A stretch of 45,538 nt of DNA from Lentisphaeria bacterium (lineage in GTDB: Bacteria; Verrucomicrobiota; Lentisphaeria; Victivallales; Victivallaceae). A model generated the notes under the pieces. The model searched no databases. It was given only the letters and a program-made list of their open reading frames with translations, and was not told the origin of the DNA. The stretch spans positions 1 through 45,538 of the forward strand of contig JAFTIE010000187.1 of assembly GCA_017457065.1 (NCBI GenBank). The letters are read 5' to 3'. Positions 1 through 31,586 of the stretch are shown one piece after another; position 1 is the first letter of the stretch, and each line of letters opens with the position of its first letter. Made by a program: the position numbers and the translations under genes.

Positions 1-210
1 CTCCGCCGTATGAAGCATTTTCCTGCGGAAAATATGAAGCGCCCCGTTGGGGCATGAAGCGCTTTCTTCGCAAGCATAATAAGGCATTTTTTTGTTCTCT
101 TTTTTCAGGTAATACAACGGCAAAACACCTGTTTGACAAGTAGTACTCACAAGGAGTTCGATGAGGGTAAAAACTCTTTTTTCCGGCTTCGGCTGATGAT
201 GATTTTTCAT
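1..210 (-). CDS. Pseudopilin N-terminus with hairpin-rich insert (partial, runs off left edge)
   Basis: Reading the minus strand from ATG at 210 gives an open frame of 70 codons with no stop before the window edge. An AAAGG ribosome site lies upstream. Residues 14-21 are FTLIELLV, the start of the type IV pilin/pseudopilin N-terminal helix. Directly after it the expected VIAIIAIL helix is missing. Instead come residues such as STTCQTGVLPLYYLKKENKK and, further on, a Cys/His/Arg-rich stretch. The DNA of that insert (1-147) contains alternating short palindromes and ATGAAGC heptamers. By analogy with the pseudopilin at 29829 the real helix probably resumes beyond the left edge with a second FTLIELLV; this is inference. 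It follows the LacI gene on the same strand after a 37-nt gap, so the two may be co-transcribed. The residue before F14 is Val, not the Gly normally needed by prepilin peptidase. It could also be a pseudogene. Confidence 0.7.
   Translation of the reverse strand, partial: MKNHHQPKPEKRVFTLIELLVSTTCQTGVLPLYYLKKENKKMPYYACEESASCPNGALHIFRRKMLHTAE
10..75. repeat. Alternating ATGAAGC heptamers and short perfect hairpins
   Basis: ATGAAGC occurs at 10-16, 34-40 and 54-60. Between and after these copies lie short palindromes of different sequence. Positions 17-33 have a 7-bp stem ATTTTCC/GGAAAAT with a 3-nt loop. Positions 41-53 have a 5-bp stem GCCCC/GGGGC with a 3-nt loop. Positions 61-75 have a 4-bp stem GCTT/AAGC. 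The bases at 1-9 could be the right arm of a further hairpin cut by the edge. The stems differ while the heptamer is constant, so this is a patterned array and not a simple tandem repeat. It lies inside the partial pseudopilin frame. Confidence 0.8.
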
Positions 211-247: not shown

Positions 248-1240
248 TCACGAACTTTTTCTGATAACAAGGGGCGCATCAAGGAGAAGGGGGGAGACTG
301 AGTTGCCTTTGAGCAGTTCAAGGAGCATCTGTGCCGCTTTGATGCCCGTTTCCTCTTTGGGCTGGACAATGGTCGTCAGGGGATAAAGGATCTGGTTGGC
401 AGCAAGCTCCACATCACTGAAGCCTACGGCGGCAAATTGGGAAGGTATCAGTTTGTTCCGCTCCACTGCCGCCCGTAAAGCTCCCAGCGCCGCTGTATCA
501 GATGCGGCAAAGACAGCGCTCAGATCAGGATCTTCATCAAACATCTCATGGGTCATGGCACATACTGCTTCCAAAGTCATGCGGCAGTAGCGGAACTGCA
601 GAGGACGCCCTTTCATGCACCTTTCATACCCTTTGAACCGCTCCTGCTGGGCGGCGTTATCGGCGTTGTGACCTATATAAGCGATATGGGTGTGTCCTCC
701 GGAAAGCAGATGTTTCATTGCACTGCACGCTGCTTTGAAGTTATCCATGGTCACTGAGGAACCGCCGAATTCCGGCATATACTCCATGACCTGAACCACG
801 GGGACACCCATGGAACGGATAAGGTAAGCCATTTCAAGATCTTCCTTGCGGGGATAGAGTATGACCCCTGCGGCATTATGCTGCATGAGAGAGGAGATCA
901 CCCGCTCCTTCTGTTCCCTGGTGGGTTTGTCAAGGGAGTCAAGAAGCATCATAAAGCCATTCTGTCCAGCCACTTCGCCGATGCCGGCAATGATGTTGCA
1001 GAAAAAACTTTTGTTGAGATAAGGGATCAGAACCCCGATAAAACGGCTTTTGCGGGTCACAAGTGAACGGGCGGCGGCATTGGGTACGTAGCCCATCCGG
1101 GTGGCGGTCTCAATGATCCTCTTGCGGGTCTCGGGAGCAAGGCGACCGGAATTGTTCAAGCCGTTGGAAACAGCACGGGCGGAAAGGTTGAGCGCCTTGC
1201 CGATATCTTTCAAAGTTACATTGCCGTTCCGGGAACTCAT
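248..1240 (-). CDS. LacI-family transcriptional regulator
   Basis: A 330-residue protein of normal LacI/GalR length. Residues about 8-60 form the helix-turn-helix and hinge region (VTLKDIGKALNLSARAVSNG followed by RKRIIETATRMGYVPNAAAR). The rest is a periplasmic-binding-protein-like sensor domain (IGVLIPYLNKSFFCNIIAGI; later AVFAASDTAALGALRAA and the AAVGFSDVELA strand), which in this family binds a sugar or related ligand. The start at 1240 has a well placed AGGAG. A sigma-70 type promoter and a perfect 18-bp palindrome lie between 1261 and 1332, which suggests autoregulation. Ligand and regulon cannot be told from sequence. The downstream same-strand partner is the truncated pseudopilin at 210. 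Confidence 0.93.
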   Translation of the reverse strand: MSSRNGNVTLKDIGKALNLSARAVSNGLNNSGRLAPETRKRIIETATRMGYVPNAAARSLVTRKSRFIGVLIPYLNKSFFCNIIAGIGEVAGQNGFMMLLDSLDKPTREQKERVISSLMQHNAAGVILYPRKEDLEMAYLIRSMGVPVVQVMEYMPEFGGSSVTMDNFKAACSAMKHLLSGGHTHIAYIGHNADNAAQQERFKGYERCMKGRPLQFRYCRMTLEAVCAMTHEMFDEDPDLSAVFAASDTAALGALRAAVERNKLIPSQFAAVGFSDVELAANQILYPLTTIVQPKEETGIKAAQMLLELLKGNSVSPLLLDAPLVIRKSS

Positions 1241-29799: not shown

Positions 29800-29828
29800 C
29801 AGAAAGCGCATTTACAGGAGATTTGAAT

Positions 29829-30725
29829 ATGAAAAAAAGTATGAATGATCCAGAATTCCCAAATTGTAAATCTGATCTTCCGGTACGTTTTTTCACGCTG
29901 ATCGAACTATTGGTGAAAAGATCACATCTCTGCTGTGATCGTGTTTATGGCAAAGAAGAAGGTCTTTCACCTGCCCCTGGGCAGGTGAAGCTGTACAGCT
30001 TCACCTTAATAGAGCTTCTTGTCGTTATTGCAATTATCGCTATTCTTGCCGCTCTGCTGCTGCCCGCTCTGCAGCAGGCACGGGAGCGCGCCAAGATCTC
30101 CGGTTGTCTTAACAATCTCAAAAGCTGCGGCTTTTTTGCTCAGCAATATGCCGGAGACAACAAGGACTGGGCGCCTTTCGCCTACAGCGGCGTTTCGGGA
30201 ACAGCCGCCTACAGCGGTTATGCACCCTATTACTGCGGGACATGGTTTGTTTTGGTCGCTCCTTATACCGGAACTTACTACAGGTATGACTTCTACCGTA
30301 TTTCCATTCAGCCCCGCAAGTTTGTCACCACAAGGAAACCGGGTGTGTTTTCATGCTCAGGCAGAAAGAACAACACCAGCAACACCTGGGGCGCCAAGAT
30401 CGATTACTCTGTCAACAACAATGCCGCCGGATATGTCGTCAACAGTCTGGGCGCAAAACAGATGCAGTGGAGCAAAGTGCGCCGCCCCTCATGGAAGGTG
30501 TGGCAGACAGATGTCCGGAGAAATTCCGGTATCCCCGGCGGTACCAATATGAACGCCGGAGTCAACTTTGACGGATTGACCTGGTCCCATCTGGGAGGAA
30601 AGGTGGTCCCTGTGGTCTTTATGGACGGTCACACAGACACATTCCCCGTTGGACAGCTGCGCGTTTTCAATAATTCAAGTCCCTGGAAACGGTATTTGGA
30701 GAGTCCCTATTATTACGGATATTGA
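29829..30725 (+). CDS. Pseudopilin with duplicated FTLIELLV start and in-frame insert
   Basis: A 298-residue protein. FTLIELLV occurs at residues 22-29 and again at 58-65. Only the second copy continues into the normal hydrophobic helix [20 protein letters not shown]. The 28 residues between (30-57, KRSHLCC... to ...KLYS) are foreign to the family. The C-terminal domain is that of the H-x-DG type secreted pseudopilins common in Planctomycetes and Lentisphaerota ([16 protein letters not shown]). The residues before the two Phe are Phe and Ser, not the Gly that prepilin peptidase usually needs. The start ATG at 29829 has AGGAG 8 nt upstream; a TTG at 29823 is too close. It sits behind the DUF4838 gene with no promoter seen between, so it is probably co-expressed and involved in its export or display (inference). 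Confidence 0.85.
29916..29999 (+). mobile_element. 84-bp hairpin insert in pseudopilin coding sequence
   Basis: The insert lies between the two FTLIELLV coding segments (29892-29915 and 30000-30023) and keeps the frame (84 bp). It has a 7-bp stem GATCACA/TGTGATC with a 7-nt loop (29920-29940) and an 11-bp perfect stem TTCACCTGCCC/GGGCAGGTGAA with a 2-nt loop (29966-29989). A perfect 22-bp palindrome (29984-30005) shares the right arm and runs into the second FTLIELLV copy. No protein-coding capacity of its own and no classical insertion-sequence ends. The mobile nature is an inference from the flanking duplication and from the parallel insert at 1-147. Confidence 0.5.
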
Positions 30726-30923: not shown

Positions 30924-31586
30924 ATGTTTCGCAAGAACCTTTTTACTTTGATAGAATTGCTCGTCGTTATTGCAATTATCGCTATTCTTGCCGCCATGCT
31001 GCTGCCTGCTCTGCAGCAGGCACGGGAACGTGCGCTCAGCACCAAGTGCGAAAATAATCTGAGGCAAGTCAACATGGCAGCTTCAGCCTACCGGGACGAT
31101 CATCAGGACTGGAATATGGACTCCAATAAAAATTACCGCGCTGAAATCATCAAGTATACAGGGCTTGATAAAATCAAAGGATATACTGATAAAAATACTG
31201 TTATGACTTGTATCAAACATCCTGTGTGGAAGAATTCCGCCAAAGCGCCCGGTTATTACGGATTCTGCTACTGGATGCACCAGAATTTTTCTCTTGACCA
31301 CTATAAAAAACGCCATATCCGCCATTCGGAGATCCGTTATCCGTCACAGCTTGCCTATATTCTGGAAGCAAGTTCCGGGCAGATCCTCACCTCGCACCGC
31401 TACAAGTATTACGGAGACGGCGGCAGCTGGGGGCAGGTAATAGGACCTTTCCACAACGGAAAACACAATCTTATCTACTATGACGGTCATGTGGGGAGCT
31501 TCCGGTACGGACAGATGCCGGCGCACCTTGAAACTGCCCTGGGCGGTGAACGGCTCTGGTATTCCCGGGGCGGACAGTATTTGTGA
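30924..31586 (+). CDS. Pseudopilin (type II secretion GspG-like, H-x-DG type)
   Basis: A 220-residue protein, uninterrupted. The N-terminus is a short basic leader, then [20 protein letters not shown] at residues 7-26, the helix that in this family anchors the protein and assembles pseudopilus fibres. The C-terminus carries [16 protein letters not shown], the DGH motif typical of this group. The residue before Phe7 is Leu, not Gly. The DNA from 30963 to 31031 is nearly identical to 30021-30089 in the pseudopilin upstream, although the rest of the two genes differs. AAGGA lies in front of the ATG. The endonuclease/phosphatase-family gene follows after 19 nt and is probably in the same transcript. 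Confidence 0.9.

Follow-up and report, generated by a model that had tools for sequence, protein, structure and literature searches.

Heptamer-tagged hairpin arrays behind tRNA genes and beside IVP four-helix-bundle genes in Lentisphaeria

The closest described systems are the REP/BIME and REPIN-RAYT repeats, in which palindromes scattered between genes carry an invariant unpaired tag (GTAG or CGTC), occur in mosaic and inverted arrangements and have a dedicated gene by some of the copies. BOX elements of Streptococcus pneumoniae are modular as well and resemble the arrays described here in that the number of middle units varies and hairpins can form, but their modules are fixed sequences, while in the arrays the tag alone is fixed. 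The 23S rRNA IVS, whose ends pair into a stem, have the four-helix-bundle family PF05635/TIGR02436 (23S_rRNA_IVP, hereafter IVP) in common with the arrays. IVPs are annotated as 'four helix bundle protein' or 'S23 ribosomal protein' and are widespread; we know of neither a function nor a catalytic activity for them. Finally, heptameric simple repeats with an intergenic, over-represented 7-nt unit were described for bacteria such as Xanthomonas and Nostoc (PMC4692102).

Apart from the tag word, which is neither GTAG nor CGTC, the arrays share these features of REP/BIME and REPIN-RAYT. However, their 7-nt tag stands on both sides of each hairpin, a four-helix bundle of the IVP family takes the place of a Y1 tyrosine transposase as the apparent partner, and the preferred site lies behind tRNA genes. 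An identity with 23S rRNA IVS was rejected: the loci contain heptamer-tagged hairpins as tRNA trailers, at terminators, as pilin leaders and between other genes, and in the loci read they lay outside the 23S rRNA gene. Unlike the arrays, the heptamers of PMC4692102 are tandem, have no hairpins and are tied to no gene family in that paper; nevertheless, Nostoc plasmid IVP genes are flanked by such heptameric repeats. A resemblance to CRISPR, drawn by an earlier note on this DNA, holds for the layout only, and a CRISPR-like array was rejected since unique non-palindromic spacers are missing and the palindromes are re-used across loci and genomes. An Rfam search of array loci returned tRNAs only and no known RNA family, and a literature search found no publication that connects IVP to heptamers or to arrays of hairpins.

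The window, meaning the whole stretch of 45,538 nucleotides that was analysed, is contig C154 of a 3.5 Mb assembly with 272 contigs (genome 90% complete). Positions 10-75 read ATGAAGC-(ATTTTCC tgc GGAAAAT)-ATGAAGC-(GCCCC gtt GGGGC)-ATGAAGC-(GCTT tcttcgc AAGC), so that the heptamers and the palindromes with stems of 7, 5 and 4 bp were found where the earlier note had placed them. The array nevertheless extends beyond these elements, as bases 1-9 retain the right-hand portion of another hairpin (ACGGC tcc GCCGT) and the contig ends inside the array; complete sister copies have at least five hairpins. Read on the minus strand, it is the leader of a possible pseudopilin gene with the following parts:

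1..9, minus strand: remnant of hairpin 4, ACGGC gga GCCGT on this strand, cut by the contig end and whole in sister copies
1..18, minus strand: possible start of a pseudopilin ORF (MLHTAE...) with a putative start codon ATG at 18-16, the remainder lying off the contig
10..16, minus strand: heptamer tag, GCTTCAT on this strand
17..33, minus strand: hairpin 3, ATTTTCC gca GGAAAAT, 7 bp, with a GNA loop on this strand
34..40, minus strand: heptamer tag
41..53, minus strand: hairpin 2, GCCCC aac GGGGC, 5 bp
54..60, minus strand: heptamer tag
61..75, minus strand: hairpin 1, GCTTGCGAAGAAAGC, 6 bp with one mismatch in the window
76..81, minus strand: -10-like box TATTAT, abutting hairpin 1

In most sister copies hairpin 1 is a perfect 6-bp stem (GCTTGC..GCAAGC). 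The motif of a heptamer, a 13- or 17-nt hairpin and the same heptamer occurs four times in the window (both strands) compared to 0.01 times in shuffles; ATGAAGC alone showed no enrichment there (13 vs 8.5 expected). A LacI-family regulator adjoins the array (251-1240, minus strand), and two further N_methyl pseudopilins are encoded at 29823-30722 and 30924-31583 (both plus strand). The earlier note was right that no partner enzyme lies in the window.

The array turns out to be one copy in a cross-phylum repeat family found behind tRNA genes and beside IVP genes. A three-tag pattern gave 100 overlapping matches in the genome of the window, originating from about 60 arrays, and none in the reversed control; a lack of further arrays, named beforehand as the outcome that would speak against the element, was thus not observed. 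Many copies are situated at contig ends, as is usual for repeats, and like REPs and BIMEs they are palindromic, dispersed and of high copy number. The carrying family comprises Lentisphaeria of animal guts, among which the arrays are patchily distributed (32 of 78 genomes, 6 of 19 genera). Few carriers were found outside the order. The GCTTCAT tag also lies beside an IVP gene in Clostridia and Kiritimatiellae. Numerous contig matches to the tag pattern were coding or tandem repeats and were discarded. Viral carriage was rejected because viral contigs matched the pattern with palindromic units in only 2 of 318 cases. A viral contig contains an Rfam freshwater-2 RNA (L401, 10763-10837).

The stems retain their pairing while their sequence changes. 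A set of 28 distinct pilin-type copies, drawn from several genomes, had 98.1% of its 924 pair cells paired. Cells with changes on both sides numbered 54 compared to 20.9 after shuffling, a value reached by none of 500 shuffles, and the covariation score was 0.171, whereas sliding one arm gave 0.048 or less. Among 204 distinct inter-tag units, 5-bp stems predominate, whereas shuffled units almost never attain 4 bp. Covariation and stem-length statistics together support that the stems are kept complementary, either by selection or by copying from arm to arm. The proposal that structure and not sequence is maintained is therefore supported, and the compensatory changes whose absence among relatives would have counted against it are present.

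Most arrays in the genome of the window are leaders of pseudopilin genes, read on the GCTTCAT strand. The genome encodes at least 132 N_methyl genes. Out of 46 complete pilin-type copies, 45 read in frame into FTLIEL, and in 39 a TATWAT box precedes hairpin 1 by exactly 6 nt. From about -70, across the array and as far as the signal peptide, the copies form a block with 83-93% identity; the gene bodies that follow show 46% identity, which is the level of shuffled sequences. Consequently, this block was spread or homogenised separately from the genes. Covariation extends into the FTLIE codons, which are mirrored by hairpin 5 of the pilin copies. These copies may by now simply be leaders.

In relatives, 52 of 76 arrays lie behind tRNA genes, 49 of them confirmed by ARAGORN, with a distance of 23-35 nt between array and tRNA end in nearly all cases. 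The hosts are mostly tRNA-Pro, -Val, -His, -Phe and -Ser. Their trailer is a palindrome with a median stem of 13 bp in filled loci compared to 4 bp in those without an array. For 16 of 49 the palindrome extends into the tRNA itself, so that the trailer contains an inverted copy of the tRNA end. At one tRNA-Glu/tRNA-Val site, a GCTTCAT array, an array with the linker TCTTCAC or an ordinary terminator was found depending on the species; this is gain, loss or exchange at a single site. Hairpins of the type AGC-GGA-AT-GAA-AT-GGA-GCT occur in the right half of tRNA-type arrays (L024-L029, L205-L213). They have symmetric GGA/GGA or GA/GA internal loops and a GAA loop, are not predicted by standard DNA folding parameters and resemble sheared G-A motifs known from DNA. 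Around the left half-array, a long-range stem forms from CTGAAAAGGC/GCCTTTTCAG or CGTCAGGC/GCCTGACG (L207, 1357-1480, and similar loci) and competes with the local hairpin GAAGCC/GGCTTC.

A search for PF05635 that was blind to the tag repeatedly found IVP genes adjoining arrays, in agreement with the check for adjacent four-helix-bundle genes that had been suggested. Conversely, an IVP gene lies within 600 nt of 18 of the 76 arrays found by the tag alone, and of 12 of the 44 whose flanks are complete; in most cases the distance to the last tag is about 102 nt. Three quarters of the arrays have no adjoining IVP. The IVPs at complete copies passed the Pfam and TIGRFAM cut-offs, with 85-97 bits against 33.8 for PF05635 and 93-107 bits for TIGR02436. 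Type I IVPs (MEKSSNKLVDLS...) pair with GCTTCAT arrays, type II IVPs (MAESRLRTLS...) with (T/A)CTTCAC arrays behind tRNA genes and a third type with CATCAT-like tags. At the tag-blind loci, GCTTCAT arrays accompanied six of six type I genes and CTTCAC arrays ten of eleven type II genes; one locus had neither. Over all loci, tag and IVP type were distributed 17:0 vs 1:10 (Fisher p=8e-7, from counts that share ancestry and are not independent), and the lone exception came from Clostridia. The second array family, behind tRNA genes with its own IVP paralog, is seen in L458-L467, L470, L220 and L222, and the third in L469 (G068), where the tags are CATCAT or CATCGTTTTGTG and the array and IVP again follow a tRNA gene.

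Two loci outside the Lentisphaeria were found by the tag alone, namely a clostridial one with the order tRNA-Cys, terminator hairpin, array and IVP (L066) and one of Kiritimatiellae with IVP genes on both sides of the array (L180). Their palindromes differ, so these loci are not the product of cross-contamination. Most clostridial loci with an array have no IVP next to it, the exception being L066, and in L158 one is located about 1 kb away. An intact type I IVP was not found in the genome of the window, which is 90% complete and holds the most copies; only remnants were detected on C106 and C191. The possibility that two arrays enclose a gene and form an autonomous element was considered and rejected, the sole relevant-looking candidate being the IVP gene in L324. 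The genomic link between arrays and IVP genes is thus established, and IVP probably handles the hairpin arrays.

IVP genes are accompanied by heptamers more generally. The flanks of 41-42 IVP loci across the phylum had a lag-7 self-identity of 0.384 upstream and 0.360 downstream compared to 0.251 in the control (s.d. 0.047), and values of at least 0.45 were reached by 17 of 83 IVP flanks vs 0 of 114 controls. The heptamer is locus-specific, often purine-rich before the IVP gene and present as its reverse complement after it. Such flanks, often inverted, were observed in L447-L457, L476-L505 and L506-L517, across Verrucomicrobiota and in Cyanobacteria/Bacteroidota. They are also found at most of the examined plasmid IVPs of Cyanobacteria, Riemerella (Bacteroidota) and Azospirillum (Pseudomonadota), for instance as (GTAGGGA)n-IVP-(CCCTACT)n in Nostoc edaphicum, whereas the plasmid IVPs of Calothrix PCC 7716 and Picosynechococcus showed little heptamer repetition. 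ATGAAGC matches the other IVP heptamers in length and, beside type I IVP genes, in orientation. As IVP genes are flanked by heptamers of their own, the constant heptamer looks like the conserved part of this element type. Some cyanobacterial plasmid IVPs are located in operons, between cas6 and cas4, between cas10 and cmr3 or between ribonucleotide reductase subunits (L511, L512, L516, L506). The 23S rRNA IVP was listed among CRISPR-linked genes without heptamer or array context (PMC10910872), and its position in cas operons may explain this listing.

The loops differ between the strands. On the tag strand, triloops were GNA in 27 of 52 distinct units and of the complementary class in two (p=1.6e-6), and tetraloops were GNNA in 17 of 25 and complementary in none (p=1.5e-5). 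The same bias was observed in Clostridia (11 vs 0), Kiritimatiellae (6 vs 0) and the second tag family (14 of 18 vs 0). Only 14 of 28 GNNA loops were GNRA and the rule for RNA is thus not followed. When closed by G-C pairs, GNA and GNNA loops form extraordinarily stable DNA mini-hairpins (PMC4686876), and the loop types favour single-stranded DNA. Under DNA parameters 84% of the real arrays folded exactly into the hairpin chain, under RNA parameters 5%. Arrays whose stems or loops had been randomised folded likewise, so this comparison was dropped as evidence for DNA over RNA. Exact DNA folding was lowered by scrambling of the tags only (33%).

The explanation we favour, with roughly even chances of being correct, is that of dispersed, modular REP-like repeats which have IVP as their partner and whose hairpins fold out to align single-stranded heptamers. 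The 7-nt tag GCTTCAT is their constant part, and the short hairpins strung between the tags are the variable one. Complete copies lie directly behind a tRNA gene or terminator and carry the IVP gene. Folded out in a single-stranded nucleic acid, most likely DNA, the palindromes would bring the unpaired heptamers almost end to end, like the plain tandem heptamers at other IVP genes. An IVP oligomer could bind this series, whereby the repeats would spread and be maintained. Each of the solved structures of IVP relatives, 2rld and 2gsc, contains five chains, which would fit a ring holding a series of words. Stem sequence would be free provided that pairing holds, and this fold-out model would account for a constant tag, stems of any sequence and short, even hairpins. 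In the genome of the window, arrays without an intact IVP would have been turned into the common leader of a large pseudopilin gene family. The inverted copies of host sequence at the array edges point to synthesis that was self-primed or switched templates, and such synthesis may also be what keeps the stems perfect. Against this explanation, the locus-to-locus differences of the heptamers outside the Lentisphaeria need explaining under sequence-specific binding by one protein. The missing intact type I IVP in the genome of the window, the three quarters of arrays that have no adjoining IVP, the mostly IVP-free clostridial loci and the absence of a known catalytic activity of IVPs count against it as well. 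More tentatively, and with prospects clearly below even, IVPs may represent a bacteria-wide mobile-element class of their own, ring-shaped cognate binders of their heptamers, which in some lineages form hairpin-spaced single-stranded chains, and may be the source of much of the heptamer excess.

Other explanations account for parts of these data. A structured leader RNA, with the array as a 5' UTR in which the hairpins protect the mRNA or mask the ribosome binding site and with the tRNA-linked copies as 3' trailers, agrees well with the pilin copies: the -10 box abuts hairpin 1, the array enters the coding frame, covariation reaches the FTLIE codons, and the promoter-array-signal block is conserved next to gene bodies of random identity. 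It leaves the IVP link unexplained, however, and relatives carry the identical tag and hairpins behind tRNA genes, outside leaders. Tetraloops of the GNNA and not the GNRA type, the lack of an Rfam family and the rare exact chain in RNA folding, which is though generic to such arrays, also speak against it, and we regard it as rather unlikely. Template switching at replication could make or repair palindromes by copying arm to arm, with the tag as microhomology and the structure unselected. The boundary palindromes composed of host sequence and its inverted copy, the long trailer stems reaching into tRNAs and the mirroring of the FTLIE codons by pilin hairpin 5 are in line with it, but the strand-biased loops, a tag constant across phyla and the IVP link would not follow. 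As the whole explanation it is improbable; it may act alongside the IVP-partnered repeats.

A REP-type transposase was among the partners suggested by the earlier note; the arrays would then be non-autonomous repeats moved by RAYT/TnpA-REP or another Y1 transposase, as ordinary REPs or BIMEs with a new tag. Tag and palindrome architecture, dispersed copies and paired inverted arrays are indeed as in REPs (PMC3733652). But the tag is neither GTAG nor CGTC, and the presence of Y1_Tnp does not track the arrays: it is absent from several array-rich, near-complete genomes (G052, G051, G015, G012 and G017), and the one weak match in the genome of the window has no ATGAAGC repeats in the examined flanks. 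This partner was rejected as very unlikely.

With IVP as the partner of the arrays, a tag that changes with the IVP paralog is a concrete candidate ligand for this protein family. The link would supply a cause for the excess of heptameric repeats, which was noted without explanation (PMC4692102), and it would add a non-RAYT class of tagged palindromic repeats that was co-opted as a gene leader.
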